Shown here: piece by piece, positions 2,178-57,125 of the stretch
Numbering within the stretch: position 1 is the first letter of the stretch
Layout of the letters: each line of letters starts with the position of its first letter
Assembly: GCA_024711125.1 (NCBI GenBank)
Contig: JANJTM010000068.1
Span: 62,001 to 126,000, forward strand
Length of the DNA stretch: 64,000 nt
Direction: 5' to 3'
From: Rhodothermales bacterium
Lineage (GTDB): Bacteria; Bacteroidota; Rhodothermia; Rhodothermales; UBA10348
Notes under the pieces: model-generated
Database searches by the model: none
What the model saw: the letters and a program-made list of their open reading frames with translations, nothing else
Told to the model about the DNA's origin: nothing
Made by a program: the position numbers and the translations under genes

Positions 2178-3572
2178 ATGGATACCGGGTTCCTGATCGA
2201 CCGCGCCGTCGCCGAAATCAGGGCGTGGGAGGCCGGCTGGGGAAGCTATGACCGGCATCCCGCCGTCGAGGTGCCCGCGGATCGCGCCGCCGAGGCCCTG
2301 AAGGTCTTTACCGACCGCCTGAAGGACAACTACCCGTTCTTCCATCCCCGGTACGCCGGGCAGATGCTCAAGCCGCCGCATCCGGCCGCCGTGGCGGCCT
2401 ACGTTGCGGCGATGCTCATCAATCCGAACAACCATGCCCTTGACGGCGGTCCGGCTACGGGGGCGATGGAAAAGGAGGTCGTGCGCACGCTGGCCGTGGT
2501 TTTCGGTTTCCCCGAGCAGCACCTCGGCCACCTGACCTCCAGCGGAACGATCGCCAACCTGGAGGCTCTCTGGGTGGCGCGTTCGTTGAAGCCGGGCGGG
2601 GTTGTCGCGTTTTCGGCCGAAGCGCACTACACCCACGCCCGCATGGCGCAGGTGCTGGGGCTCGAGACCCGCGTGGTACCGACGGACGCGTCCGGGCACA
2701 TGGATCCTTCGGCCGTGGAGCGCGCGCTCCAGGACGGGCGGGTGTCGACGCTGGTCGCGACGGCCGGCACGACGGGGATCGGGGCCGTCGACCCGATCGC
2801 CGACATCGTGGAAGTCGCGCGTCGATACGAAGCGAGGCTGCACGTCGATGCGGCATACGGGGGCTTTTTCCGCCTCCTCGCCGAGGCGGCCGACCCCCGG
2901 CTCACGCCGGAGACGCGACGGAACCTGCTGGCCGTTTCGGAAGCCGATTCGGTCGTGGTCGACCCGCACAAACACGGGCTTCAGCCGTACGGGTGCGGTG
3001 CGGTGCTCTTCCGCGATTCCTCGGTAGGTCGGTTCTACCGGCACGATTCGCCCTACACGTACTTCACGTCCGACGAACTGCACCTGGGCGAAATCAGCCT
3101 CGAATGTTCGCGCGCCGGGGCGTCGGCCGCGGCGTTCTGGCTGACGACGCGACTCCTGCCGCTCAGGGCCGACGAGGGACTCGGACCGATCCTGGGCGCC
3201 TGCCTGTCGGCGGCCCGAACGTGGCACGGCCTCCTCGCGGCGTCTGAAGATCTCGCTCCCCTGCGGGCCCCGGAGCTGGACATCGTGACCTATTTCCCGA
3301 GAGTCGAATCGGCGCGAGCGGCGGCGATCGACCAGGCGTCCCGGGCGGTTTTCGAGGCGGCCATGACCGATCCCGAGGATCCCGTGTTCCTGTCGGTCCT
3401 CCGGGTGCCCGCGTCGCGCGTGACGCTCAACGGTCGTGGGGTGCGCCGGGATCGGAACGACGTCCAGGTCCTGCGGAGCGTACTCATGAAACCCGAGCAC
3501 CAGGGCTACGTGCCCCGGCTGCACCGCCGGATCGAGGCGATCGCGCGGCACGTGCGCAGGGAGGTGGCCTGA
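2178..3572 (+). CDS. PLP-dependent group II decarboxylase family protein
   Basis: 464-residue fold-type I PLP enzyme related to the glutamate/aromatic amino acid/tyrosine decarboxylases (Pyridoxal_deC). The Schiff-base lysine is K265 in the motif DPHKHGLQPYG. The upstream HVDAAYGG supplies the Asp that contacts the pyridine nitrogen, and LTSSGTIANLEAL is the phosphate-binding region. The substrate cannot be read from the sequence; candidates are an amino acid or a sulfinic acid. The ATG at 2178 sits one base after the lgt stop, and the gene runs into the rRNA methyltransferase after one base, so the three form a tight operon. An internal ATG at 2151 was rejected because it lies inside lgt. 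Confidence 0.85.
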   Translation: MDTGFLIDRAVAEIRAWEAGWGSYDRHPAVEVPADRAAEALKVFTDRLKDNYPFFHPRYAGQMLKPPHPAAVAAYVAAMLINPNNHALDGGPATGAMEKEVVRTLAVVFGFPEQHLGHLTSSGTIANLEALWVARSLKPGGVVAFSAEAHYTHARMAQVLGLETRVVPTDASGHMDPSAVERALQDGRVSTLVATAGTTGIGAVDPIADIVEVARRYEARLHVDAAYGGFFRLLAEAADPRLTPETRRNLLAVSEADSVVVDPHKHGLQPYGCGAVLFRDSSVGRFYRHDSPYTYFTSDELHLGEISLECSRAGASAAAFWLTTRLLPLRADEGLGPILGACLSAARTWHGLLAASEDLAPLRAPELDIVTYFPRVESARAAAIDQASRAVFEAAMTDPEDPVFLSVLRVPASRVTLNGRGVRRDRNDVQVLRSVLMKPEHQGYVPRLHRRIEAIARHVRREVA

Positions 3573-3573
3573 C

Positions 3574-4335
3574 GTGCGCAACGCCCCGGATACCCCGCTG
3601 CTGGCAGGGCGCAACCCGGTTCGGGAAGCGCTCGAAAGCAAGAGCGACATCGACAAGGTGCTGCTCCAGGCCGATCTTCCGGGCCGGGTGCAAGGGGAAT
3701 TCCGTGCCTTGGCAAAAGCCGCCGGTGTGCCGGTGCAGCAGGTCCCGCTGGCCCGGCTGGAACACCTGGTGCCGGGTGTGAACCACCAGGGTGTGGTAGC
3801 CCTGCTGGCTTCGGTAGGGTATCGGGATTTCGACGACATGATGAGCGCAATCGCGCCCACGCGGGACGATGTCGTGGCCCGGAAGCCCATCATCGTGCTG
3901 CTCGACGGCATCCAGGACCCGCACAACCTCGGGGCGATCCTGCGCACCGCCGTCGCGGCGGGTGTCGCGGGAGCGGTCGTGCCCGAGCGTGGAGCGGCCC
4001 CGCTCAACGCGGCCGCCCTCAAGGCCAGCGCGGGATTGGCCCACCGGATTCCCGTGGCGAGGGTGACGAACCTTCGTGACGCGATCTGGCAGTTGAAGGA
4101 ACGGGGATACTGGGTCGTCGGCGCAGACGGCGAGGGGGAAGCGACCTGCTGGGATCTCGATTGGGATCGCGCGGTAGCCCTCGTTATCGGCAGCGAGGGT
4201 CTGGGCATGCGGCCCGCAGTGGCAGCCGACTGCGATTACCGCGTTCGTATCCCGATGCCGGGCCCTGCCGAGTCATTGAACGCATCGGTGGCCGCGGGAA
4301 TCCTGCTCTTCGCGGCGATACGGTCGCGTTCCTGA
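3574..4335 (+). CDS. rlmB: TrmH/SpoU family 23S rRNA 2'-O-methyltransferase (RlmB-type)
   Basis: 253-residue SPOUT methyltransferase expected to 2'-O-methylate a guanosine of 23S rRNA using S-adenosylmethionine. Domain order is an N-terminal substrate-binding domain (LLAGRNPVREALES, about residues 9-80) and a C-terminal knotted domain. The three SpoU motifs are present: motif 1 DGIQDPHNLGAILRTA, motif 2 ALVIGSEGLGMR and motif 3 IPMPGPAESLNASVAAGILL. It starts at GTG 3574, one base after the decarboxylase stop, which suggests translational coupling. TrmH-like tRNA methylation is an alternative, but the N-terminal domain favours RlmB. Confidence 0.9.
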   Translation: MRNAPDTPLLAGRNPVREALESKSDIDKVLLQADLPGRVQGEFRALAKAAGVPVQQVPLARLEHLVPGVNHQGVVALLASVGYRDFDDMMSAIAPTRDDVVARKPIIVLLDGIQDPHNLGAILRTAVAAGVAGAVVPERGAAPLNAAALKASAGLAHRIPVARVTNLRDAIWQLKERGYWVVGADGEGEATCWDLDWDRAVALVIGSEGLGMRPAVAADCDYRVRIPMPGPAESLNASVAAGILLFAAIRSRS

Positions 4336-32672: not shown

Positions 32673-35600
32673 GTGATCCGTCGATTCCTCCTCAGCGCCT
32701 GCCCCCTGGCAGCCGCGTTCCTGGTCCTGGGCGACCTGCCGGCCCGCGGCCAGTCCCTCGACCTGTTCCTGCGCCCGCTCGAAAGCCAGGAAATCCAGCT
32801 GAAACGCCGCGCGGCGAGGGAGTCCGGCGACCCTGCCCCAAAGGCGCTTACCAAGATCGACCAAGGCGATTCGCTCGCCCTCGTCGCGTTGTACGATGCG
32901 GCGGGCGGATCAGGATGGACGAACCAGGCCGGGTGGCTTGGCGGCACCGTGGACACCTGGTGGGGCATCGGGGTCGCCGGGACACGGGTCGTTTCGGTCC
33001 ACCTCGACGGCAATAACCTCGTCGGCACGATCCCCTCGGCCATCCGCAACCTCACCGCCGTGGAGTGGCTGGACCTGAGCAGTTCCGGGGATGATCGGAA
33101 CTACCTCAGCGGCCCGATTCCGGCCGAGATCGGGGACATGACGGCGCTCGAGGATCTCGACCTGGCCGGTAACGAATTGACCGGCGGCATTCCGCCCGAA
33201 ATCGGCCGGCTGACGGCACTGCAATACCTGGACCTGAGCACCAACCGGCTTACGGGCACCTTGCCTGCGGAGATAGGCGACCTGGCCGCGCTCGAGACGC
33301 TGGCCGTAATGGAAAACGACTTCGAAGGATCGATTCCCGTCGAATTGGCGCGGCTGTCGAATCTCGAGTTCCTGTTCCTGGGCTCCGAGGAGGACGACAA
33401 CCGGTGGAGCGGCACGATACCCGCCGCGCTCGGCAGCCTGGCCAACCTGGAGTGGATGTACATCGGCGGAGGCGAACTCGAGGGCCCGATACCCCCCGAA
33501 CTGGGCAACCTGTCGAAACTGCAGATCCTGGCGCTGCACGGGAACAGGCTTTCCGGAACCCTTCCGCCCGAACTGGGAAATCTCCTGGAACTGCGAATGC
33601 TGAGCCTGGGGCTCGTCGGGACCGATGAGGACGCCGGAGGCGGTGAACCCCGGACCTTCAACATGGGCAACAACCTGTCGGGGCCGATTCCGTCGGAACT
33701 CGGCAACCTCAGGAAGATCGTCTCGCTCGCGCTGGCGGGTAACCGGTTCACGGGGGCACCGCCGGCGGGTATGGTCTCCAATGCCCGGCTGATGATCCTG
33801 CTGGCCAACTGCAATCAGTTCGACGATTTTCCGGTACCGCCGTCACCTTCAAGTCTGCAGGTGGTGGACGTCAGCAGCAACCGGCTGCGGTTCGACGACC
33901 TCCTGCCGTTCGTGGGCATGGCCGGCGGAAACGTCCGGTACGCGCCCCAGGCCCCGGTCGAATGGACGGTCGAGAGGTTCGGCCTCACGACCCGCCTGTC
34001 GGTTCCGTCCGGCGCGGCGGGCGACATGATCCAATGGTACCGGGACGGTTCGCCGCTTGCGGGTGAGAACGCATCGAGCCTCGACATCCCCGGAGCCGAC
34101 GACGAGAGTCGCTACGAGGCCCGGATCACCAACCCCGGCGCGCCGGAACTCACGCTTACGACGAGGTCGGCCGGTTCAATCGAGGTGACCTCGGACCAGG
34201 ACCTTGCCGACGCCGATCCGAACGACCAGGCGTGCGATGTGGATCTGCAGACGCCGGGCGCGCAGTGCACGCTCCGGGCAGCGCTGGAGATCGTCGCTTC
34301 GGGCGGAGGGGACCCGTGCGAATGCACGCGGAGCATCACGTTCGGAGCGGGCGTGTTGTCGGTCCTGGTGAATTCGGAGCTTCCTGTGATTGTCGGTCCG
34401 TTGAGTATCGACGGCGGAGTCGACCGCGTCCGGATACATGGGGGCGGAATCGCCGCCGATGGGTTCAGCGTTGCCGGCGACGGTGTGGCTCTGCGCAATC
34501 TCTTCGTTTCGGGTTTCGAGGGTCACGCGGTGCGTTTTCTCTCCGGCGGTGGGCATTCGCTGACGGGCTCGGTCGCATTCGCCGAGCACGCGGGGCGAAA
34601 TGCCGTTCGCGTAGACGATGCCGTGACCTCCGTCACCGTGGGTGGGATGACCGAAACCGACCAGAACGAACTGTCTGGCGGAATCGTGATCATGGGACCG
34701 TCCCGGGGCGGTATCCGTATGCTGCGCAACGAGATTCGGCTCTCGTCGGCCGAGGTGACGAGGCGTCCTCTTCTTGTTCCCATCGATAGGGGCGCGGACG
34801 GTCCCACCTGCGCGGACTGGACTGACCCGGAGACCCTGCCGCCGCCGCGCATCCTGGAGTTGTCGACAACGCTGGTCCGTGGGTTCGCCATGCCGTCGGC
34901 AACCGTAGTCGCGAACCTGGAGACGTCACCCGGAAGCGAAGCGGGGCGCTACTGGTCGGCGTCGATTCGGCCGCTGGGCGTGGCCCAGGCCGGCCCTGAT
35001 GGGGAGTACACGGTATTGTTCGACCGACCGGTCACCGCCGGAGCGCGCATCGTCATGCATTCGGTGGACGTGTCGGGTCGTACGTCGGAGCTGACGCAGG
35101 CAAAACGCCCGGTCATCGTGCTCCCGGGTGTGGGAGGGACCTGGCTGCGGTCCACGACCGGCGACAATCTATACATCGACCTCGGACACTCGATTGACTA
35201 CACGATTCGCAAGCAGCTTGACCGGCTGCGTATGGACGTGTCCGGAACGGTCCAGCTCAACGGTGAGACGGTGGTCGCCGACGAGATCATGGACGGAACC
35301 CTTTTCGGGAACGACCTGCCGTACCGACCCATGACGCGCAAACTGGAGGCGGCGGGCTGGACGGGGCATCCGAAAAACGAAAACGAGCCTCTGCTGGATC
35401 TCTGGCGCTTTCCGTACGACTGGCGTCTGCGCAGCTACGAGCATGCCGACCGGCTCCGAGACCTGGTCGAGCGGCTCACCAAGGCTTCGGTGTCGACCCA
35501 GTCCCGTCCTGCAGTCTCTTGCGAGGTCGATATCGTCACACACTCGAATGGGGGCATGGTAGCCAGTGCCTATGTCTGGAAGCACCGGGAACACAGCCGC

Positions 35601-37742
35601 AACCGCGTCAACCGGCTGCTAATGAACGCCGCGCCCTACCTCGGCGCGGTCCAGGTTGCGGCCGCCCACACGAGCGGCTACCTGTTCGGCATCGAGGGCG
35701 TGGATTGGGTGGGCCCCGACCTGCACTACGGCCGCCTGACACGGCTCTTCCGGAATCTGCCGAACGGGTACGGGCTGATGCCCAGCCGCCTCTTCTACGA
35801 TGCGCTGGATGTCGGGCTGCCAAGCCAGTCCCTAATGGTTCTTTCCAACCTGAAGGGAGAGCGGCTGGTCGGGTACGACGCGACGTTCGGGTTCCTGACG
35901 CGGTCCAAGACCGACGCAACAGGCGCTCCTGACGGGCTGGGACGCAATGCGGCGCTCTGGGCCGCCGAGCAGTCCAACCTCCACGACCTCATGAATGACT
36001 GGCGAAGGTTCGACGGCCCGCCGCAGGTTTTCCGCCACGTAGGGCGCCTTCCACGCTCGACCGCCATGGCCTTTTCCGTGCCGGCCGGCCTGAAGATCCC
36101 GTGGCGCATCCTGGCTTCGGACTACCAGGAGGACGGTGACACCGAGTTGCACGTGGCGTACAGGGAACGTCTCGCCGTTCGGCTTTCCGGATGGGGGGAC
36201 GGCACCGTGCCGCTCGTATCGGCAACGCTCGGTCGCGGGATGACGACACAGGGTGGCGTAGGTGCGTTGGACTACTCGGGCGTCGATGAAAGCCCGTGGA
36301 TCGAGGAATTCGAGTACTTCCCATGCCTGCACATGCCCATGGTGGAGGAGAGCTGTCCGGCAAATGCAGAGGGCAGAAAACCGCTCGACCGCATGATCGA
36401 GGTCCTCGAGGGCGGATCCGCGGTGCCGGCAGCCACCACCGGGAAGTCGGGCGGGTGGGATGGCTCGGGCCGGGAGGTGTTCGTCGTCGAGGCCGATGCG
36501 CCGATACGGGTATTTGTGCGGGGCGCAAACGGCTCCAAGGGCGAGGATCCGTCGGAGAACGAGCCGTCCACTCTCCCTGAGGTGGGCCTCTGGTCTGGCC
36601 CGGCGTGGGCCACGATCAGCCTTCCCGCAAATGAGTCCTACACCGTGCACGTGCTCGCGGGCGACACGCCCGCGCGGGTGCAAGTGAGTCGACAGACGGA
36701 GACGGCATCGGACGCTGCCTATCGGCTCTTTCCGGAGATGGATCTCGACGCAGGCGGATCGGCCGTGATGGCGCTGTCGGCGACGGGGACCGCTGGTTCC
36801 GCACCGTTCGAGGTGGATGCCGATGGAGACGGATCGACCGAGGTTGCCGTGGCACCGGCCGTCGAGCGGGCCGGAGCCACCGAGGGTTCAGGCGTGCCGT
36901 CTCCGTATCCCGTGTGGTTTGACGAGGTTGCGGCGCCCGGAGACGCTCCGTTCGAGCGGATCCTCCAACTCCTGCAACCAGGGGCCGACACCTGGACATG
37001 GCGCCTCGAGGGCCTGCCGGCCTGGCTGTCCGTCGACGCGACGCAGGGAGCAACACCGGCCGAAGTGCGGCTGACCTTTCTGCCCGCCGGGCTGGGCGAC
37101 GGAGCGGTCGAAGCGTCCCTCCGGCTCCGGTACGTGCTGGACGGATTCGAAACCGAGCGCGAGGTGCCGGTACGCCTCGTAGTGAGGGGCGCTCCAGCTG
37201 TTGTCACCACGATCCAGGTCGCACCGACCGGACTCGATCTGGCGCCCGGGGACGTCGCGCAGTTCAGTGCGATCGCGTTCGACCAGTACGCGGTGTCCAC
37301 CCCGGCCGCCTTCACATGGACGGCATCCGGTGGAGAGATCTCCGCTGACGGTGAGTACACGGCCGGGCCGCAGTCCGGCCTTTTCCGCGTAACGGCTACA
37401 GGGCCCGGCGGTGTGGCAGGATCCGTCGACGTGCGGATCGCGGGCGGGGTCGGGTTGGAATCGGAACCGGGACTTCCCGGCCGTTACCACCTCGCCCCCG
37501 CGTACCCGAACCCGTTCAATCCGGCGACCGTGGTGCCTTTCGATCTGCCCGCGGCAAGCCGCGTGCGATTGGTCGTGTACGACGCCTTGGGGCGAACGGT
37601 CGCCGTGTTGGTGGACGGGACCCTGCCGGCCGGCAGTTACCGCTATCGACTCGACGCAGGGCTCCTGGCGGGTGGCGCGTATTTCGTCACCATGGACGCG
37701 TCAAACTACCGGCAGACCCGGGGCCTGCTCCTCTTGCGCTGA
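32673..37742 (+). CDS. Giant secreted fusion: LRR, beta-helix, LCAT-like lipase, T9SS sorting domain
   Basis: 1689 residues from GTG 32673. Order: signal peptide (to about residue 27); plant-type leucine-rich repeats at about 65-400 (GPIPAEIGDMTALEDLDLAGNEL pattern); an Ig-like segment (about 420-500); a CSLREA/beta-helix-like part (QCTLRAALEIV, ITFGAGVLSV; about 505-700); an LCAT/PGAP1-like alpha/beta hydrolase from about 810 (RPVIVLPGVGGTWLR), with nucleophile Ser about residue 956 in IVTHSNGGMVA, candidate acid Asp in GWGDGTVPLVS and His in PCLHMPMVEE; beta domains, including a Big-like segment at about 1505-1585; and a T9SS C-terminal domain (LAPAYPNPFNPATVVPFDLP ... LLLLR). It is predicted to be secreted and surface-anchored or released through T9SS, with the LRRs possibly recognising a substrate. 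Confidence 0.85.
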   Translation: MIRRFLLSACPLAAAFLVLGDLPARGQSLDLFLRPLESQEIQLKRRAARESGDPAPKALTKIDQGDSLALVALYDAAGGSGWTNQAGWLGGTVDTWWGIGVAGTRVVSVHLDGNNLVGTIPSAIRNLTAVEWLDLSSSGDDRNYLSGPIPAEIGDMTALEDLDLAGNELTGGIPPEIGRLTALQYLDLSTNRLTGTLPAEIGDLAALETLAVMENDFEGSIPVELARLSNLEFLFLGSEEDDNRWSGTIPAALGSLANLEWMYIGGGELEGPIPPELGNLSKLQILALHGNRLSGTLPPELGNLLELRMLSLGLVGTDEDAGGGEPRTFNMGNNLSGPIPSELGNLRKIVSLALAGNRFTGAPPAGMVSNARLMILLANCNQFDDFPVPPSPSSLQVVDVSSNRLRFDDLLPFVGMAGGNVRYAPQAPVEWTVERFGLTTRLSVPSGAAGDMIQWYRDGSPLAGENASSLDIPGADDESRYEARITNPGAPELTLTTRSAGSIEVTSDQDLADADPNDQACDVDLQTPGAQCTLRAALEIVASGGGDPCECTRSITFGAGVLSVLVNSELPVIVGPLSIDGGVDRVRIHGGGIAADGFSVAGDGVALRNLFVSGFEGHAVRFLSGGGHSLTGSVAFAEHAGRNAVRVDDAVTSVTVGGMTETDQNELSGGIVIMGPSRGGIRMLRNEIRLSSAEVTRRPLLVPIDRGADGPTCADWTDPETLPPPRILELSTTLVRGFAMPSATVVANLETSPGSEAGRYWSASIRPLGVAQAGPDGEYTVLFDRPVTAGARIVMHSVDVSGRTSELTQAKRPVIVLPGVGGTWLRSTTGDNLYIDLGHSIDYTIRKQLDRLRMDVSGTVQLNGETVVADEIMDGTLFGNDLPYRPMTRKLEAAGWTGHPKNENEPLLDLWRFPYDWRLRSYEHADRLRDLVERLTKASVSTQSRPAVSCEVDIVTHSNGGMVASAYVWKHREHSRNRVNRLLMNAAPYLGAVQVAAAHTSGYLFGIEGVDWVGPDLHYGRLTRLFRNLPNGYGLMPSRLFYDALDVGLPSQSLMVLSNLKGERLVGYDATFGFLTRSKTDATGAPDGLGRNAALWAAEQSNLHDLMNDWRRFDGPPQVFRHVGRLPRSTAMAFSVPAGLKIPWRILASDYQEDGDTELHVAYRERLAVRLSGWGDGTVPLVSATLGRGMTTQGGVGALDYSGVDESPWIEEFEYFPCLHMPMVEESCPANAEGRKPLDRMIEVLEGGSAVPAATTGKSGGWDGSGREVFVVEADAPIRVFVRGANGSKGEDPSENEPSTLPEVGLWSGPAWATISLPANESYTVHVLAGDTPARVQVSRQTETASDAAYRLFPEMDLDAGGSAVMALSATGTAGSAPFEVDADGDGSTEVAVAPAVERAGATEGSGVPSPYPVWFDEVAAPGDAPFERILQLLQPGADTWTWRLEGLPAWLSVDATQGATPAEVRLTFLPAGLGDGAVEASLRLRYVLDGFETEREVPVRLVVRGAPAVVTTIQVAPTGLDLAPGDVAQFSAIAFDQYAVSTPAAFTWTASGGEISADGEYTAGPQSGLFRVTATGPGGVAGSVDVRIAGGVGLESEPGLPGRYHLAPAYPNPFNPATVVPFDLPAASRVRLVVYDALGRTVAVLVDGTLPAGSYRYRLDAGLLAGGAYFVTMDASNYRQTRGLLLLR

Positions 37743-37744
37743 CC

Positions 37745-38236
37745 TCAGAACGCGCGCACGCCCGGCTTCGTCGCGGCGTAGCGGAACGTCATGTAGCGCA
37801 CCTCCTCGGTCTCGCTGTGGTAGTACGACGAGATCTCCATCTTGGCGTACCGGCCGTCGCGCAGCAGGAAGACGAGGGTGTGGTCGGGCAGCGGCCAGAG
37901 GAAGTGGGCCTGCTGGTCATAGTTGTACCAGCGGTCGCCCTTGGCCGAGCGGATTCCGCCCTCCTGGTACCCCTCGGCGGGCGCTTCGGCGAGGTCGTCG
38001 TACTTCTGCGCGAGCAGCACGCCGATGCCGTTCGGCTTGATGTCGGTGCCGGCGATCTGGAGGTCCCAGTTCGTGTCGGTGACGAGGCTGTCGGGCACGA
38101 CGCCGGTCGCGAAGCTGAAGTGCACGGGGTCGCCGCCGACGTAGAGGTTCGAGACGCTCTGGGCGAAGGCTGGAGTTACCGAAGCGGCGAGCGCGACGGC
38201 GCAGGCGATGACCAGGTGTCGGGCGGAAGTCTTCAC
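37745..38236 (-). CDS. HmuY-like secreted protein
   Basis: 163 residues from GTG 38236 with a signal peptide (LVIACAVALAASVTPAFAQ). The core NLYVGGDPVHFSFATGVVP, TNWDLQIAGTDIKPNGIG and RYAKMEISSYYHSETEEVRYMTFRYA resembles the HmuY family (the NWDIAF.G..I..NGG motif, YAK.KI.SYY and TFRY). HmuY proteins are heme-capturing surface proteins. The heme-ligating histidines of P. gingivalis HmuY are not evident here, so heme binding is uncertain. It is convergent with the LRR-lipase gene (gap 2 bp) and divergent from the FGE-like gene. Confidence 0.6.
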   Translation of the reverse strand: MKTSARHLVIACAVALAASVTPAFAQSVSNLYVGGDPVHFSFATGVVPDSLVTDTNWDLQIAGTDIKPNGIGVLLAQKYDDLAEAPAEGYQEGGIRSAKGDRWYNYDQQAHFLWPLPDHTLVFLLRDGRYAKMEISSYYHSETEEVRYMTFRYAATKPGVRAF

Positions 38237-38466: not shown

Positions 38467-41400
38467 ATGTTGTGGCTTCGTCGCCTTGTGCTTGCCATTT
38501 CGTTGTTGCCGGTACTCTGGACCGCCTTCGTGCAGCAGAGCGCCGCGCAGGAGCCTGGACCGTTCCCGGGTGCGGTCCGACTCGGCGTCCCGTATCCGAA
38601 CCCGGCACAGGACCGCGTCGCAGTCCCGTTCCGCACGTCCAGACCCGCGTTCGTGACCGTGGAGGTCCACGACCTGACCGGACGGCGGGTGCTTCACTCC
38701 AGGCAGTTCGTGCAGGGGGGCCGCCACGAGATCCTGGTGGACCTCGGCGATTCGGCGGCCGGGCTCTACCTGGTTCGGGCCTTCACCGGGGAACGGGGGT
38801 CGTCGGCCGTTTCCTTCGTCCGCACCGCCCGCAGCGGCGGATCGGCCGGCATCAGTATCCGCGACGCCGGCTCCGGCGGTTTCGATGCAGATCCTGACCT
38901 GCGGCCCGAAATCGCAGATTCCGACGAGGTCCGGGCGGGGCACGCATCGGCGTGTGCGCTGCGGACGTGTTCGCCGGCCGCCTCGACGACCCGGCCGGAC
39001 AGCCTGGTCAATTCGGTCGGAATGTGGTTCACGCGGGTGCCCAAGGCCGAGTATACCATGGGTTCGGTCGACGGGCCCGGGGACGAACGGCCGGTGCGGA
39101 GCGTCCGGCTGACGAGGGATGTGTGGGTCGCACGAACCGAGGTGACACGCGCCCGGTTCACCGAGGTGCTGGGTGGGGCCGCACCGGGCTCGGCAGCCGC
39201 TACCGACGTGCGCCCGGTCACCGGGGTGTCGTGGTTCGATGCCGTGGGATTCGCGAATGCGCTGTCCCGCATCGAGGGGTACCCGGAGTGCTACGTACCC
39301 GGTGGCGAGGTGCTTTCCGGCGCGATCACGGAATGTGAGGGCTACCGGCTGCCGACGGAGGCCGAGTGGGAGTTCATGGCCCGGGCCGGTACGGCGACCG
39401 CCTGGTCGTTCGGCGACGACGCGTCCCGGATCGGCGAATTCGCGTGGTACGCGGACAACTCCTCGTTCGGCGTACGGGGAACGCGCGGGGTCGGGGTCAA
39501 GCGGCCGAACCGGTGGGGAATCCACGATGTGCACGGCAACGCCTGGGAGTGGGTGCACGACCGGTACGGGTCGTACGACGACGGAAGTCGGACCGACCCG
39601 AGAGGTCCGACCGAGGGACTGCTGCGGGTCATTCGAGGAGGCAGTTACCTGTCCAGTCCGTCGTCGATGCGATCGACCGGGAGGGGTTCGATGGATCCTG
39701 TCGGGCGCAATCCGGGCGTAGGTTTTCGCATCGTGCGGACGGCCGACGGCCCCGCGCTGCCCGGGGGGCCGCCTTCGGAACCCTCGGATCCCGCCCCGCA
39801 GGACGGGCGAAGGGGCGTCTCGCCGGCCGGATCGCTCTCGTGGTTCGCCGCGGACAGGGACGGCGACGAGGTCACGTTCGACGTGTACTTCGGGACCGAA
39901 GAGCCGCTTCCGCTCGTCGCGTCCGGCCTCGTCGAGCCGACGCTGCCGATTCCGCCTACCAATGACCGCACGACCTACCGGTGGCGGGTCGAGGTCTCGG
40001 ACGGTCGCTGGGCCATCGAGGGACCGCTCTGGACGTTCACGACCGGACCGGAACCCGGGGCGCACGGCCTGCCCACCATGCGCAATTCGCTCGGAATGGA
40101 GTTCGTACTGATTCCCCCCGGAAAATTCGTGATCGGGGATATCAACTACACCCGGTACGACGTCACGCTCACCCGGGAGTTCTGGATCGGGGTCTACGAA
40201 ACGACCCGTAGCGAGTATGACCGGGTGATGGGCGCGGTCCCGCCGGGTGGTGACGATCGCCTGCCGGTCCAGAACGTCACCTGGCTCGAGGCCGTCCAGT
40301 TTGCCAATGCGCTTTCGGTACTCGAAGGAGCAGAGGTTTGCTACGGGGCGGACTTCGAGCCGATCCGCACGGACATTCACTCTTGTCGAGGGTACCGGCT
40401 TCCTACCCAGGCAGAGTGGGAATACGCGACGAGAGCCGGGACGACAGGTCCCTGGTCATTCGGCGACGACGAATCCCGCCTCGGTGAGCACGCCTGGTAC
40501 GCGGCGAACTCCGGAGGGGTGGCTCACGCCGTGGGGTGGCGCTTGCCGAACCCGTGGGGTCTTCATGACATGCACGGCAACGTGCGCGAGTGGACCCACG
40601 ACCGCTATACGAATTTCCTCGGCAGATCGCGCACGGATCCGATCCTGGGCGGGGGATGGTCAAAGGGGGTTCGGGGCGGGTCCTTTCGATCCGAGGCAGG
40701 GGCCACCCGTTCCGGGGCGGAGTCGTCGCTCGATCGCGACGCACGACGCGACGACGTTGGGATCCGGCTCATTCGAGGCTCCACAGCGCTGAATCGGCCG
40801 CCTGGCGTGCCCTACGGCCCGTCCCCGTCGCATGGAGCCTTGAACCTGGAGCTGGATTCCACGACCCTGACGTGGCAGGCCGTCGATCCGGACGACGACC
40901 CGCTCGGCTACGAAGTCTACTTCGGAACGAGTTGGCCACCGCCGCTCGCGCAGGCCTTTACGACCCACGCGTCGTTCGAAACGGGGCCGCTCGCGGCGAA
41001 TACGCACTACTACTGGAGGGTGGTCGCACGGGACGGACCCGACCGGACCACGGGTCCCGACTGGGTTTTTCTGACCGGAAACGGCTCCCCTGCCGAGCCG
41101 CTCGCCAGAGCGATCAACGGGTGGGGCATGGAACTCCTGAGGGTGCCGGCAGGCACATTCAAGATGGGATCTCTCGTGGGCCACCAGACGGCTCGTTGGC
41201 CTCACCAGGTCACCTTGACCCACGACTTCTGGCTGCAGCGCTTCGAAACGACCCAGGCGGAATACGTGCGGGTGACCGGCATGAATCCGTCGTTGTCCCG
41301 GTCGCCAGACCGGCCCGTCGAGACGGTCACCTGGTTGGAAGCCACGAGATTCGCCAACACGGTATCCGTTAAACAGGGATTCGAGGCCTGTTATGCCGCC

Positions 41401-42903
41401 GACGGTTCGTTCCGGCCGGGCGACATCTACACATGCACAGGGTACCGCCTCCCGACCGAGGCCGAGTTCGAGTATGCCGCCCGAGCCGGGACGAGTACCG
41501 AGGACTGGTTCGGAGACGCGGCCTCGATGACCCGGGATTTCGCTTGGGTCGATTCCAACTCCGACAGGAATCTTCAGCCGGTAGGCCGGATGCCGCCCAA
41601 TCCGTGGGGCTTCTTCGACCTGTTGGGCAATGTCGGTGAGTTCGCTCATGACGGGACCGATCTCGCGTCGTTCTCGGCAGACCCGGTGGTCGATCCCGTA
41701 CTCGGGCTTGCCGCCGTTCGACGGATGTATCGAGGGGGCAGCATCCGGACGACCGATACCTATCCATTGACGAGCGTCCGTTGGGCCATCGCACCAGACG
41801 AGAGTGAGAGCTATGTCGGCTTTCGCCTGGCGAGGACGGCGTTCGAGGAGAGAGGCGCCAACCTGCCGCCCAACGCGGCGGTATCCCCATATCCGGTGGA
41901 CCGATCGGTCGTCCGGGACCTCGATACGCTCCTCGAGTGGCAGGGAAGCGACCCGGAGGGGGATCCTGTCACCTACGATCTGTACTTCGGAACGACCGAC
42001 CCCCCTCCGCCGATCGCCCGGGGATTGACCGAATCGGTCTTCGATCCGGGAACCCTCGATCCATCGACCGTCTATTTCTGGCACGTCGTGACGGCGGACG
42101 GCGAGGGGCACTCGCCCGCCGTGGAATGGCGTTTCATCACGGACGGGCCACCGGTCGACCCGCCGCTGGCCCGGACGACGGGCCCGATGGGGATGGATTT
42201 CGTAAGGCTTCCCCATGGCCATTTCGAGATGGGTTCGGAAGCGACCGGGGAGCGGCCGGTCAGGCGGGTCGTGCTCTCGCACGATGTCTGGATGGGCGTC
42301 CGCGAGGTGACGCAGGCCGAATACAAGGCCATGCTCGGAACGAATCCGAGCCGGTTCACCGCGACCGGGCAGCACCCGGTCGACGGCGTCACTCGCCTGG
42401 ACGCGATCCGGTTCGTCAACGCGCTCTCGCGATCCGAGGGATTGGTCCCGTGTTACGACGCTTCGGGATCGGCGGCGGGCGACCCTTACGATTGCGAGGG
42501 CTACCGACTTCCGACCGAAGCGGAATGGGAATATGGCGCTCGCGCCGGAACGTCGGGCGACACCTTTTTCAGCGGCACAGGAACCGGTCTGGAGGACTTC
42601 GCCTGGTTCTCCGGCAACTCGGCCGGAACCGGCACGCGCGAAGTGGCCCGAGGGCTGGCCAACCCGTGGGGCCTTTTCGACATCTACGGCAACGTCCAGG
42701 AGTGGGTGGACGACCACCTCGTGCCCTACGATCCCGCCGAAGCATGGGATCCGGTCGGTCGCGGCACCCGGGACACGCGAGTCGTGCGCGGCGGAAGCTG
42801 GACACAGGGAGTCGACAAGAACCGGTCGGCGAGCCGTGTCCCCCTGTCGGGAGGCGTTTCGCTGGCGTCCGTCGGCTTCCGGGTGGCCCGGACGGCCCGG
42901 TGA
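38467..42903 (+). CDS. Four-domain FGE-sulfatase-like secreted protein with N-terminal T9SS-like module
   Basis: 1478 residues from ATG 38467. Signal peptide; then at about 36-120 a T9SS type A-like module (LGVPYPNPAQDRVAVPF ... GLYLVRAFTGE) in an N-terminal instead of C-terminal position; four formylglycine-generating-enzyme-like domains at about 181-428, 539-769, 883-1122 and 1239-1478; and three fibronectin-like modules between them (YFGTxxPxPxxA, then a Y-W-R-V strand). Each FGE-like domain has the GYRLPTEAEWE motif and a Cys pair just before it (CY ... C.GYRLP). The oxidase cysteines of real FGE (C-terminal RGGS...C...C) are missing in all four (for example RVIRGGSYLSSPSS, RVVRGGSWTQGV). 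Predicted to be non-catalytic, C-type-lectin-fold-like binding modules. No C-terminal T9SS domain. Confidence 0.82.
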   Translation: MLWLRRLVLAISLLPVLWTAFVQQSAAQEPGPFPGAVRLGVPYPNPAQDRVAVPFRTSRPAFVTVEVHDLTGRRVLHSRQFVQGGRHEILVDLGDSAAGLYLVRAFTGERGSSAVSFVRTARSGGSAGISIRDAGSGGFDADPDLRPEIADSDEVRAGHASACALRTCSPAASTTRPDSLVNSVGMWFTRVPKAEYTMGSVDGPGDERPVRSVRLTRDVWVARTEVTRARFTEVLGGAAPGSAAATDVRPVTGVSWFDAVGFANALSRIEGYPECYVPGGEVLSGAITECEGYRLPTEAEWEFMARAGTATAWSFGDDASRIGEFAWYADNSSFGVRGTRGVGVKRPNRWGIHDVHGNAWEWVHDRYGSYDDGSRTDPRGPTEGLLRVIRGGSYLSSPSSMRSTGRGSMDPVGRNPGVGFRIVRTADGPALPGGPPSEPSDPAPQDGRRGVSPAGSLSWFAADRDGDEVTFDVYFGTEEPLPLVASGLVEPTLPIPPTNDRTTYRWRVEVSDGRWAIEGPLWTFTTGPEPGAHGLPTMRNSLGMEFVLIPPGKFVIGDINYTRYDVTLTREFWIGVYETTRSEYDRVMGAVPPGGDDRLPVQNVTWLEAVQFANALSVLEGAEVCYGADFEPIRTDIHSCRGYRLPTQAEWEYATRAGTTGPWSFGDDESRLGEHAWYAANSGGVAHAVGWRLPNPWGLHDMHGNVREWTHDRYTNFLGRSRTDPILGGGWSKGVRGGSFRSEAGATRSGAESSLDRDARRDDVGIRLIRGSTALNRPPGVPYGPSPSHGALNLELDSTTLTWQAVDPDDDPLGYEVYFGTSWPPPLAQAFTTHASFETGPLAANTHYYWRVVARDGPDRTTGPDWVFLTGNGSPAEPLARAINGWGMELLRVPAGTFKMGSLVGHQTARWPHQVTLTHDFWLQRFETTQAEYVRVTGMNPSLSRSPDRPVETVTWLEATRFANTVSVKQGFEACYAADGSFRPGDIYTCTGYRLPTEAEFEYAARAGTSTEDWFGDAASMTRDFAWVDSNSDRNLQPVGRMPPNPWGFFDLLGNVGEFAHDGTDLASFSADPVVDPVLGLAAVRRMYRGGSIRTTDTYPLTSVRWAIAPDESESYVGFRLARTAFEERGANLPPNAAVSPYPVDRSVVRDLDTLLEWQGSDPEGDPVTYDLYFGTTDPPPPIARGLTESVFDPGTLDPSTVYFWHVVTADGEGHSPAVEWRFITDGPPVDPPLARTTGPMGMDFVRLPHGHFEMGSEATGERPVRRVVLSHDVWMGVREVTQAEYKAMLGTNPSRFTATGQHPVDGVTRLDAIRFVNALSRSEGLVPCYDASGSAAGDPYDCEGYRLPTEAEWEYGARAGTSGDTFFSGTGTGLEDFAWFSGNSAGTGTREVARGLANPWGLFDIYGNVQEWVDDHLVPYDPAEAWDPVGRGTRDTRVVRGGSWTQGVDKNRSASRVPLSGGVSLASVGFRVARTAR

Positions 42904-53252: not shown

Positions 53253-55823
53253 TCACCGCACGAGGGTCATGGTGCGCGTGGCCGAGCCCGACGGGGTTTC
53301 GAGACGCGCGACGTACATCCCGGTGGCAAGTCCCGTGGCGTCGAAGCGCACTTCATGCCGTCCCGCCGGGTGCAGCCCGTCGACGAGCACCGAAACCTGC
53401 CGTCCCAGGACGTCATACACGACAAGGCGCACCCGGGAAGCCGCCGGTAGCGCGAAGGCGATCGTCGTGGTCGGATTGAACGGGTTCGGCCAGTTCTGCT
53501 CCAGGACGTATCCGCCGGGCAGGTCGGCCGCACTTTCCCCGGCCGTCGAGAACGCGTCGATGAGCTGCAGGTCATCGATCCAGATCGTGCCGGAGGCCGT
53601 GCCGGCGTCGGCCCGCGTGAGCTGGATGCTGTCGATGCGGAGCGTACCCGTGACCGTGCCGTCTCCGATCCACGTGCCGGTCTGCCCGTCGTAGATGGCC
53701 CACGTGACCGGTTGCCATCCGTACCAGTCGACGGATGTCCACGGACTGACCTCGTGGTTCGACGCCGCGGTCGCCGGCACGTTGTCGTCGATGGCGAAGC
53801 GGAATTTCGTGCCGCTTCCGTCCCCGAAGACCCAGGCGCGCAACTGCCTGGCGCTGTCGAAGGTGAGCGAACGGGGCGCACCGCCCCCGAGATACTGGCG
53901 GATCAGCGGCTCCGTAGCGGTCGCGTCCCATCCGTACGACAGGCGCATGGCGGTCGAGCCGCCGAACAGCGCGTTCGTCACCTGGGTGTCGGCCGCCATA
54001 GAGGTCTGCGTCGTGACGATTCCCGTCGTCGAGCCGCTCTGCTGCGGCTGCCACCAGTTCGTGGTCACACCGGTCTCGAAGTTGTCGATCGGGGTGACGT
54101 CTTCTTCGAGCGAGCCCGTCGTGAAGCTCAGCGTCTTCTGGTTCGGATCGGGATTCAGGAAGAGGTCGGCAACGCCGGGCGCGACGATGAACCGGTGCGC
54201 GGTGCCGGGAGCGAGTGGCTCGGACGGGAAGAACGAGACGACGCCGCGCTCCCGCACGCGCCAATAGCGCACCTCGCCCGCGACGGGCACGGCCCCCGCG
54301 GTCCGCTCGAGACGAACGCGCGAGAACACGGTGGTCGAGTCCAGGGGCTCGTCGTACACGAACGTGACGACGGGTCTCAGCGCGACGTCCCTGGCGTTCT
54401 GGCGGGGAAACGACCCCGCGATCGCCGCCGGCTTCGTGTCCGGGAAGCCCGTCGTGAACGACATGGCGAAGACGCCGCCCGCCGCACCGTCGGCATCGCC
54501 GTCGAACGGGTGGCCGTAGGCCCCGACCGCGGTCTCGGCGATACGGAGCGTGTAGAACGTTCGAGCACGCAGCGAATCCGGGCGGAAGATCAACCGCCGG
54601 TCCCCGTTGGTCCACGAGAAGGTGCCGGTGGCCGACGGCTCGAGCGAAAAGGCCGCCTCGGTTGCGGCCCGTTCCATGGGCCTCGAGAAATTGACCTGGA
54701 TCGCGTCGGTGACGCGGAACGGGTCCTGTCCGGCCGTCGGGGTCGTCGTCGCGACGGTCGGGGGCACCGTCGAGACGAGCCCGATGTCGTGGTGGGTGAA
54801 CACGCCGCCGGGCGCTTCCACCGAGCCCGTGTACGGCTCGAAACCGGGCGCCTCGGCCGTCACATCGTGCAGCGTGCCCGCGAGTCCATCCAGATAGTAG
54901 AACCCGTTTCGCAGGGCCTGGGGGTCGTTCGAGAACTGGCGGAAGAGCGACTCCCAGGTATCGGTCGTGTACGTGGTGTCTCCGACACTGACGACGGCGC
55001 CGTTGATCGGATCGCCCGATTCGATGTCCCGCACGATACCCGTGACGATCTGTTCGGGCGGATGCGGCAGCCCGTGGAAATCGAGGATGCCCCAGTACTC
55101 GGCCCGCGCCTCCATGCGCTTCCAGTCGGCGTTCATGTTGCGCTGGTTCTGGGTCGGATTCGTGTGGAATCCGGCCTCGCCGAGCGCGCTCGCCATGTTC
55201 GTGTAGCTCTGCACGTAGTTGCGCGAGCCGCCTTTTCCGCTCGAGAGCACGTTGGCACGGCAGCTCGAAACGCCGTAGAAATCGCACTCGCCCCAGATGC
55301 CTCCGTTCGACTTGGGGATACGCATGCCGTCGGCCAGCGAGTTGGCCAGGAGTTGCGCCATGCGCTTGCCGCCGTTGGGCACGGCCTCCGACCGGTCCTG
55401 GTACTGCGGCCAGAGCACGAAGAGGTTGTTGGCCTCCGGCCCCGCGGCGTTCGAGTGGATCGACAGGAAGAAGTCGCTGCCGGTCGCGTTCGCGAAATCG
55501 ACCCGCTGCGAGAGGTCCGGATTGACGTCGTCGGTCGTGCGCGAGATGTAGACCGTATCGATGTCGGTCGTCTCGAGTAGTAGTCGACGCAGCTCGAGAC
55601 CGATCGCGAGCACCTTGCGGGCCTCGGAATAGCCCGCGTAGCCCACGTTTCCGTTCTGGCCGTGGCCGGGGTCGAGGAAGATCTTCCAGCCGGAGAGCCC
55701 GGTGACCGGGGGCGCGGCGGGTCGCACGATGGGCTGGGCGACGGCGGAGGCCGGAAATCCGGCGGTCAGTAGGGCGACCCCGAAGGCCGCGGCGAGCATT
55801 CTCGTCTTCATGGCGCGGCTCAT
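53253..55823 (-). CDS. T9SS-exported N-acetylmuramoyl-L-alanine amidase with Ig-like domains
   Basis: 856 residues from ATG 55823, coupled to the TolB-like gene by an ATGA overlap; ATG 55811 (MKTRMLAAAFGVALLTAGFPASAVA) would leave a compact signal peptide. Amidase_3 domain at about 45-245: zinc ligands H54 (LDPGHGQN), E67 (SEARKVLA) and H123 (SIHSNAAG), catalytic Glu E216 (LGEAGFHTNP). Further on a carboxypeptidase-regulatory-like segment (TGIVRDIESGDPINGAVVSVG), two Big/Ig-type copies (VATTTPTAGQDPFRVTDAIQVNFSRPM; TKPAAIAGSFPRQNARDVALRPVVTF), a carbohydrate-binding-like sandwich at about 590-755, and a T9SS type A domain (YVLEQNWPNPFNPTTTIAFALP ... TLVR). Cell-wall remodelling at the cell surface, or attack on other bacteria; the latter is speculative. 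Confidence 0.9.
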   Translation of the reverse strand: MSRAMKTRMLAAAFGVALLTAGFPASAVAQPIVRPAAPPVTGLSGWKIFLDPGHGQNGNVGYAGYSEARKVLAIGLELRRLLLETTDIDTVYISRTTDDVNPDLSQRVDFANATGSDFFLSIHSNAAGPEANNLFVLWPQYQDRSEAVPNGGKRMAQLLANSLADGMRIPKSNGGIWGECDFYGVSSCRANVLSSGKGGSRNYVQSYTNMASALGEAGFHTNPTQNQRNMNADWKRMEARAEYWGILDFHGLPHPPEQIVTGIVRDIESGDPINGAVVSVGDTTYTTDTWESLFRQFSNDPQALRNGFYYLDGLAGTLHDVTAEAPGFEPYTGSVEAPGGVFTHHDIGLVSTVPPTVATTTPTAGQDPFRVTDAIQVNFSRPMERAATEAAFSLEPSATGTFSWTNGDRRLIFRPDSLRARTFYTLRIAETAVGAYGHPFDGDADGAAGGVFAMSFTTGFPDTKPAAIAGSFPRQNARDVALRPVVTFVYDEPLDSTTVFSRVRLERTAGAVPVAGEVRYWRVRERGVVSFFPSEPLAPGTAHRFIVAPGVADLFLNPDPNQKTLSFTTGSLEEDVTPIDNFETGVTTNWWQPQQSGSTTGIVTTQTSMAADTQVTNALFGGSTAMRLSYGWDATATEPLIRQYLGGGAPRSLTFDSARQLRAWVFGDGSGTKFRFAIDDNVPATAASNHEVSPWTSVDWYGWQPVTWAIYDGQTGTWIGDGTVTGTLRIDSIQLTRADAGTASGTIWIDDLQLIDAFSTAGESAADLPGGYVLEQNWPNPFNPTTTIAFALPAASRVRLVVYDVLGRQVSVLVDGLHPAGRHEVRFDATGLATGMYVARLETPSGSATRTMTLVR

Positions 55824-56794
55824 CGGGCGACGGGGAGGAGGTAGATCACACCGTCGACGAGGTCGTCGTAGGCGATGCGCGTTCCGTCCGGGGACCAGGA
55901 CGGGTTCATTTCGAGGCGGTCTGCCGTGTCGGTGAGTCGAACCTCGGCCGAGCCGTCGGCGCGCACGGCCCACAGGTCGCTCGCGGTGAAGCGCTCCCCG
56001 TCGTCCTCGGTGCGCATCAGGACGAGCCAGCTTCCGTCCGGAGACCACTGTGGGCGGTTGCCCGGGCCGACGTCGACCGGCGTGGCCTCGAGGTCGTCGA
56101 GGCTCACGATGTGCACGTTGCCTCCGACCACTTCGAATGCGGCCGCGCGGCCGTCGGGCGACGCGGCGAGGTTGATCAGCGCCTGCCCCTCGAAGACGTC
56201 GAGCCGGCGCATCGCGCCGGTCGTCGCGTCGGCCAGCATCAGCCGGGCGTCGTCCAGGACCAGGAACCGGTCGGGACGGCCGGCCTTGGCCGCCGTCGGG
56301 GGAAGGGGCGTGCGGAAGGACGCGACGGTCTGGTCCGTGGGGAGGGCGACTTCCGTGCCGCCCGGCACGAAGACCGGGAGCGCCGCGAAGGTCGAGCGTG
56401 GGGCGACGACCTCGGTTTCGGCCGCCGTCGTGGCATCGTAGAGGCGCACCGACTGCGTACGCCGGCCGTCTGCCTGCCGGACCGTGCGGGCGAGGAGCGC
56501 CGAACCGTCGGGGCTCCAGGCGAAGCCGAAGCCGGCCGAAGCCGCGTCGGTGACACGGCGGGAGCGCCCGGAATCGAGGTCGTGGACCCACAGGCCCGCG
56601 AAGCCTTCGCTGGTGAAGGCAAGGCGGCTTCCGTCGGGCGAGAAGCGGGGATGGGAATAGGGGCCGTCGTCGGTGCCGGTGACGCGCTCGGGGGCGCCAG
56701 TGGCCCGGGGCAGGCCCTGCGCGCGGGCGCCGGTCGCGAGGAGCAGGAGGGAGAAGGCGGCCGGAAGGGCGGCGGCCCGGATCGGAAGGCGCAT
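55820..56794 (-). CDS. TolB-like WD40/PD40 beta-propeller protein, secreted
   Basis: 324 residues from ATG 56794 with signal peptide (RAAALPAAFSLLLLATGARAQ). PD40 repeats: YSHPRFSPDGSRLAFTSEGFAGLWVHDLDSG, FGFAWSPDGSALLAR, RPQWSPDGSWLVLMRTEDDG, EMNPSWSPDGTRIAYDDLVDG. These form a TolB-like propeller without the TolB N-terminal domain. It may help outer-membrane assembly or bind a peptidoglycan partner; cotranscription with the amidase (4-bp overlap) supports the second. The upstream region carries the 52-bp repeat locus B. Confidence 0.85.
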   Translation of the reverse strand: MRLPIRAAALPAAFSLLLLATGARAQGLPRATGAPERVTGTDDGPYSHPRFSPDGSRLAFTSEGFAGLWVHDLDSGRSRRVTDAASAGFGFAWSPDGSALLARTVRQADGRRTQSVRLYDATTAAETEVVAPRSTFAALPVFVPGGTEVALPTDQTVASFRTPLPPTAAKAGRPDRFLVLDDARLMLADATTGAMRRLDVFEGQALINLAASPDGRAAAFEVVGGNVHIVSLDDLEATPVDVGPGNRPQWSPDGSWLVLMRTEDDGERFTASDLWAVRADGSAEVRLTDTADRLEMNPSWSPDGTRIAYDDLVDGVIYLLPVAR

Positions 56795-57125
56795 GGAAAC
56801 GGGGTCGGTTCGAGCCCCTACCTACCCCTCGCCGGCGGCGAGGTTGCCGCCCACGGTTACTCACCGCATCGATCGTGCGCCCACGGGGACAGGAACGGCC
56901 GCTCCCAATCCCCCTTCTTCGGTTCGGAAGAAGCATGAAAGTGGGATTTTGGCTCGGATTCCATGTATTTGGCCCCAAAAACGGGCGAATACATCGACTT
57001 TCCGCCCTTTTACGACGTTTTGACCCCTAAAAGCGGGTGAATACATCGACTATCCGCCCTTTTACGACGTTTTGCCCCCCCCAAAGCGGATGTGGCACGC
57101 AGCCCGCCGTGCAAGCCTGGCACGA
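56795..57125. other. Intergenic region containing the 52-bp repeat, locus B
   Basis: 331 bp between sulfatase copy 2 and the TolB-like gene, both on the minus strand. Most of it is repeat (56945-57090). The remainder near 56800-56935 is GC-rich with no clear promoter. An open frame at 56861-57046 was not accepted as a gene. Confidence 0.55.
56945..57090 (-). repeat. 52-bp tandem repeat, locus B (one full and two partial copies)
   Basis: Read on the minus strand. Full unit: starts GATGTATTCACCCGCTTTTA at 57047, with the 52-bp block AGGGGTCAAAACGTCGTAAA then AGGGCGGAAAGTC. It is followed by a third partial unit starting GATGTATTCGCCCGTTTTTG at 56995 and preceded by a partial first unit (about 57090-57048, missing its GATGTATT start). 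The period is 52. The sequence matches locus A at 29676-29780 in the transcription orientation. Both loci are downstream of a gene stop and upstream of a lipoprotein or secreted-protein gene. Confidence 0.75.

Follow-up and report, generated by a model that had tools for sequence, protein, structure and literature searches.

An N-terminal type A-like sorting domain ahead of four FGE-like domains in a Rhodothermales protein, and a related nested module family in Bacteroidota

Cargo proteins of the type IX secretion system (T9SS) are recognised, and annotated, via a C-terminal domain (CTD), which in type A is a seven-strand Ig-like sandwich. Among proteins related to formylglycine-generating enzyme (FGE), TvpA of Treponema denticola is a variable C-type-lectin-fold protein that is diversified by a diversity-generating retroelement (DGR). 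The sorting motifs of C-terminal domains are surface exposed and face PorV, type A signals require the last 13 residues and the lysines of motif E, and in HBP35 the last 22 residues suffice as a type A signal (PMC10202324).

The protein described here brings relatives of both systems together. Its N-terminal domain shares with type A CTDs a score above the curated cut-offs, an Ig-like fold, the PNP, GR and GxY motifs and a leader before PNP; it differs from them in lying at the N terminus and in lacking a free C-terminal K/R end, and in relatives of the protein the domain is nested inside a CarboxypepD_reg domain. Under a definition of the class by C-terminal position and a basic last residue (the end of motif E), the domain therefore falls outside it. 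By the window we mean the whole 64,000-nucleotide stretch of DNA that was analysed, in which the gene occupies positions 38467 to 42903 of the forward strand as an uninterrupted open reading frame of 1478 codons with an ATG start.

The features of the protein are collected in Table 1. A clear signal peptide, MLWLRRLVLAISLLPVLWTAFVQQSAAQ, can be read from the translation, and the whole protein gives four matches to the Pfam FGE-sulfatase family PF03781 with a combined 459 bits. It terminates with the fourth FGE-like domain; a C-terminal sorting domain is absent, and Pfam finds a single Por_Secre_tail (Por) domain. The preliminary description had proposed a secreted protein with four FGE-like domains and three fibronectin-like modules, and this layout was borne out by the signal peptide, by the matches obtained when each domain was run against the FGE-sulfatase model (106 to 134 bits), and by Foldseek matches to Fn3 domains, on which the term Fn3-like rests, the one Pfam fn3 match lying below its 25-bit cut-off.

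Table 1. Features of the 1478-residue protein and of the gene upstream of it, in window positions.
Feature	Position	Strand	Basis
Sec signal peptide, aa 1-28	38467..38550	+	translation; lipobox cysteine absent
N-terminal T9SS type A CTD-like (Por_Secre_tail) domain with upstream leader EPGPFPGAVRLGV-PYPNP	38551..38826	+	PF18962, TIGR04183, model
Pfam core of N-terminal Por domain	38593-38793		PF18962
Gly-rich linker GGSAGISIRDAGSGG...CALRTC	38827..39018	+	by eye; resembles 'GRPGVPGISFTDGG' of L146
FGE-like domain 1, Cys pair aa 275/290	39037..39738	+	PF03781, 134 bits; AlphaFold2 model
Fn3-like spacer 1, approximate boundaries	39784..40059	+	Foldseek Fn3 matches of FGE1 + spacer model
FGE-like domain 2, Cys pair aa 625/640	40099..40776	+	PF03781, 106 bits
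Fn3-like spacer 2, approximate boundaries	40834..41082	+	PF00041, weak, aa 794-857, 17.9 bits
FGE-like domain 3, Cys pair aa 975/990	41131..41835	+	PF03781, 109 bits
Fn3-like spacer 3, approximate boundaries	41890..42150	+	sequence pattern as in spacers 1 and 2
FGE-like domain 4, Cys pair aa 1329/1343	42196..42891	+	PF03781, 117 bits
Ordinary C-terminal type A sorting domain of upstream LRR/LCAT-like gene	37455..37739	+	PF18962/TIGR04183, aa 1611-1683/1689

It is the N-terminal domain, and not the FGE half, that is the surprise of this protein. PF18962 matches aa 43-109 of the 1478 at 27.7 bits (cut-off 27), and TIGR04183 (cut-off 23) scores 27.2 bits with the full-length sequence and 31.3 bits with the N-terminal 178 residues alone; the signature VPYPNPAQDRVAVPF occupies aa 41-55 (window 38587-38631), and some 1370 further residues follow the domain. 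The placement of a T9SS A-type module directly behind the signal peptide, which the preliminary description had read from the sequence, is thus upheld by both curated cut-offs. The possibility that the module was some other beta domain was examined by modeling, and the structure obtained, at a pLDDT of 75 and, like our other models, from a shallow alignment, is a seven-strand Ig-like sandwich, its assignment to PF18962 and TIGR04183 resting on sequence. Searches with this model by Foldseek and VIA-align returned generic Ig-like matches only, including DUF3244, PorU and FlgD, with no single clear match to a CTD.

The source genome (G000, 3.79 Mb) holds at least 92 Por_Secre_tail matches, and 79 of the 81 domains that could be placed end within 25 residues of the stop codon. 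The two exceptions are the window protein and a paralogue on contig C3, and in both FGE domains follow; an interrupted gene was ruled out for the paralogue, its TGA being a natural stop after the second FGE domain. K or R is the exact last residue in 68 of 78 C-terminal sorting domains of the genome, and the window domain, at 63 bits, stands low among the genome's sorting domains (about the 4th percentile). The N-terminal module is thus real and unusual for this genome. SprA is present (1943 bits), but as 112 of 113 Rhodothermales genomes match it, 111 of them over the cut-off, co-occurrence with the T9SS tests nothing.

Two sorting domains in the ordinary C-terminal position lie within the window. 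The gene at 32673-37742 (+) encodes 1689 residues, in which leucine-rich repeats and an LCAT/PGAP1-like hydrolase domain are joined to a type A sorting domain at the C terminus, and that at 53253-56978 (-) combines Amidase_3, Big_5 and CarboxypepD_reg with a C-terminal Por domain, so that it has both modules of the N-terminal family described below in ordinary order and un-nested. A small secreted HmuY-like protein (37745-38236, -; PF14064 at 26.6 bits, just below the cut-off) is encoded divergently from the FGE-array gene, and the two genes have their upstream region in common. Elsewhere in the genome, contigs C5 (L047) and C34 (L056) carry tandem genes of about 1000 residues with near-identical C-terminal sorting domains, whose tails read AGGRLDVKSVVLLK; this is a recent tandem expansion.

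Among 60 FGE loci from the order, proteins that combine Por with FGE always carry Por at the N terminus, and in four of the proteins (L146, L196, L197 and C3) the Por domain is placed within a CarboxypepD_reg-like domain. Excision of Por from L197 lifted its score against PF13620 (CarboxypepD_reg) over the cut-off of 32.3 bits, to 35.0 bits compared with 25.2 bits before, and the match became full length; among ten more modules treated in this way, L283 went from no match to 29.6 bits and most showed no clear gain. By score, nesting is firm in L197, L283 and C3, and elsewhere it is suggested by alignment. At further Por loci this module was found ahead of passengers other than FGE, and once these appeared a fusion specific to FGE domains was ruled out.

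A profile (A3) built from nine modules gave full-length matches of 102-248 bits within the order, whereas ordinary C-terminal domains scored at most 99 bits, with the Por part alone matched; elsewhere in the class and phylum matches scored 92-135 bits and were taken only if Por lay far from the stop codon. The search for homologues carrying the N-terminal module that the preliminary description had called for thereby yielded a family of at least 39 distinct proteins in at least 27 Bacteroidota genomes (of which 14 belong to the order, 10 to the rest of the class and 3 to the rest of the phylum), counts that are minima because only the best candidates of each genome were scored. In other phyla, a profile search of contigs returned matches to FGE domains only, without a Por domain. 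Many kinds of passenger follow the module, among them FGE, FISUMP (Fib_succ_major), subtilase, M19 peptidase, PhoPQ-related, fn3, PKD, Big_9/cadherin-like and DUF285 domains, with fn3 arrays being alike behind the module and in one protein with C-terminal Por. The N-terminal domain of the window protein is one of a family of modules that are nested in a CarboxypepD_reg-like domain and set before many passengers, which lay beyond the view of a description made from a single stretch of DNA.

The family is uniform in its layout. A signal peptide lies immediately upstream of the module in all 39 proteins except C3, which begins at a contig edge, and the N-terminal half of the CarboxypepD_reg-like domain measures 55-68 residues in every module but the same clipped one. 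Each of the 39 proteins, five of which are incomplete at the 3' end, contains a single Por domain, in no case at the C terminus, and no open reading frame in any of the fetched loci combined an N-terminal or internal Por domain with a C-terminal one. In the 40 Por domains (the 39 nested ones and that of the window) both prolines of PNP, the glycine of GR, and GxY are invariant, and about half have kept a basic last-strand residue. Seven of eight relatives tested with NCBIfam match TIGR04183 at 31-43 bits (for the eighth, C3, this match is not listed), so that annotation pipelines would label them as T9SS sorting-domain proteins.

Both CarboxypepD_reg halves are absent from the window protein, while L146 and C3 (the latter with its N-terminal half clipped) have them. 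Judged by its domains, the window protein represents a pared-down form of the family in which Por has been kept and the halves lost, and its Gly-rich linker is probably a remnant of the linker found behind the nested Por domain of its relatives. The neighborhoods examined showed no recurrent outer-membrane partner gene adjoining the module genes. At one locus (L306) an M19 dipeptidase carrying the N-terminal module (759-2384, +) adjoins a gene that looks PorV-like by sequence (2658-3668, -; GPRAIGMGGAFTAVAND..WNPSG), and adjacent pairs of module-bearing genes occur at four loci (L221, L279, L289 and L299).

A front-end tag on dozens of unrelated secreted proteins suggests an unrecognised surface-sorting route in these bacteria. 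One module on many passengers, with the C-terminal tag excluded, is what one would expect of an element for sorting or anchoring, and our favored reading, at a probability of roughly 0.4, is that a CTD-derived module at the N terminus replaces the C-terminal T9SS tag. The protein would be exported by Sec with the Ig-like domain, derived from a type A sorting domain, just behind its signal peptide; this domain would fold in the periplasm and present the conserved face of PNP, GR and GxY to the T9SS (the PorV/SprA route). Given its internal position, the module would be kept in the mature protein, escaping cutting by PorU, and could serve as a hold on the outer membrane, so that the four FGE-like domains, spaced by Fn3-like modules, would stand on the cell surface as disulfide-stabilised, non-catalytic binders with a C-type-lectin fold.

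Against sorting from the N terminus stand the K/R ends of most CTDs in the genome, which an internal domain cannot have, and the lack of a basic last-strand residue in about half of the nested modules; these, together with the published requirement for C-terminal residues, keep recognition of the module by the T9SS somewhat short of even odds. The low score of the window domain and the lack of a recurrent partner gene beside the module genes also count against it. A stronger form of the proposal, in which a type A-like signal inside CarboxypepD_reg constitutes a second type IX sorting topology that exports the protein and stays uncleaved as its outer-membrane anchor, is doubtful; if true, it would break with the rule that places every T9SS signal at the C terminus. 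Our search of the open-access literature found no published description of N-terminal T9SS signals.

Nearly as plausible, though likewise short of probable, is a purely structural role: the N-terminal Por domain would descend from a sorting domain but serve merely as an Ig-like module for structure or binding, ignored by the T9SS, in a protein that is periplasmic or reaches the surface in another way. The folds of Por, DUF3244, FlgD_ig and Fn3 are close, in keeping with a Foldseek search that singled out no CTD, and both the missing K/R end and the burial of the relatives' Por domain within another domain are as such a role would have them. However, the motif residues that are surface exposed in CTDs are invariant in 40 of 40 domains, and a plain spacer has no need of many unrelated passengers or of the exclusion of a C-terminal Por domain. 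Whether the recurrent N-terminal nested form is a second sorting topology or a sorting fold reused as an extracellular module, the outcome bears on how surface proteins are predicted across Bacteroidota.

It is improbable that the module is a relic, that is, what remains of a former T9SS cargo made up of signal peptide, CarboxypepD_reg and CTD, which lost its stop codon and fused with downstream genes, leaving the CTD vestigial. Small beta domains do commonly precede C-terminal CTDs, and the CarboxypepD_reg halves are already gone from the window protein, but the C-terminal half of CarboxypepD_reg resumes behind Por, as the excision from L197 indicates, which makes Por an insertion; moreover, the length of the N-terminal half is nearly constant across the class and beyond, and a single origin of the FGE-linked Por domains of the order was not rejected (p-AU 0.40).

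The FGE half, by comparison with the N-terminal domain that we favor as a sorting or anchoring module, is a variation on a common theme. Its four domains, 38-46% identical to one another, share with FGE (SUMF1) the PF03781 fold and the motifs GYRLPTEAEWE, GN..EW, RGGS and GFR, and differ in lacking the oxidase cysteines and having another pair instead. The catalytic positions read RGGSYLSSPSSMR, RGGSFRSEAGATR, RGGSIRTTDTYPL and RGGSWTQGVDKNR, without cysteine, whereas the true FGEs L018 and L021 from the same search read GGSYLCH.SYC, that is, CH.SYC after RGGS. An active FGE was thus ruled out, the catalytic, Cu-binding pair being absent from all four domains, as had been claimed at the outset. 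Also as claimed, an alternative pair precedes GYRLPT[EQ]AE[WF]E in every domain (spacing 15, 15, 15 and 14) and accounts for eight of the ten cysteines of the protein, the other two (163 and 168) lying in the linker; a pair kept four times over among almost no other cysteines suggests four disulfides, one in each domain.

The nearest solved structure by sequence is TvpA (86 bits), followed by catalytic FGE (62 bits), and a profile made from the aligned FGE-like domains again placed TvpA before FGE. An AlphaFold2 model of the first domain and its spacer (pLDDT 75) found TvpA (2y3c) as its best Foldseek match (E 2e-18), with PvdO (5hha) second, FGE next and Fn3 domains lower in the list. The simplest reading, from sequence and model, is that the four domains are putative non-catalytic binding modules: of the proposed array of C-type-lectin-fold binders, the non-catalytic lectin-type fold finds support in the missing oxidase cysteines and in TvpA as nearest relative, and a surface location and ligand binding may be inferred. 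It is improbable that they are active enzymes with PvdO-like or other non-FGE chemistry, for although PvdO, which likewise stands outside the Cys-pair FGEs, ranks second in the fold search, the nearest match is a variable binding protein, and four tandem copies with Fn3 spacers fit multivalent binding.

Other assignments were considered and rejected. The window protein resembles the T9SS lipoproteins GldK/PorK and GldJ in having a non-catalytic fold of FGE type in a bacterium that has a T9SS, but it has no lipobox, is a tandem array and scores 193 bits against an equivalog cut-off of 350; membership of TIGR02171 was excluded likewise (269 against 544 bits). With TvpA it shares the absence of the FGE catalytic pair; TvpA, in contrast to the four tandem domains here, is a DGR target, and a search for reverse transcriptase (RVT_1) that was positive in control genomes found no match in the source genome, from which it follows that the array is not a target of this kind. 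A tree of FGE domains places the four, with moderate support (92/77), in a clade with the C3 paralogue, a fragment on C29, L146 and L165, which belong to the same family and all have the Cys pair.
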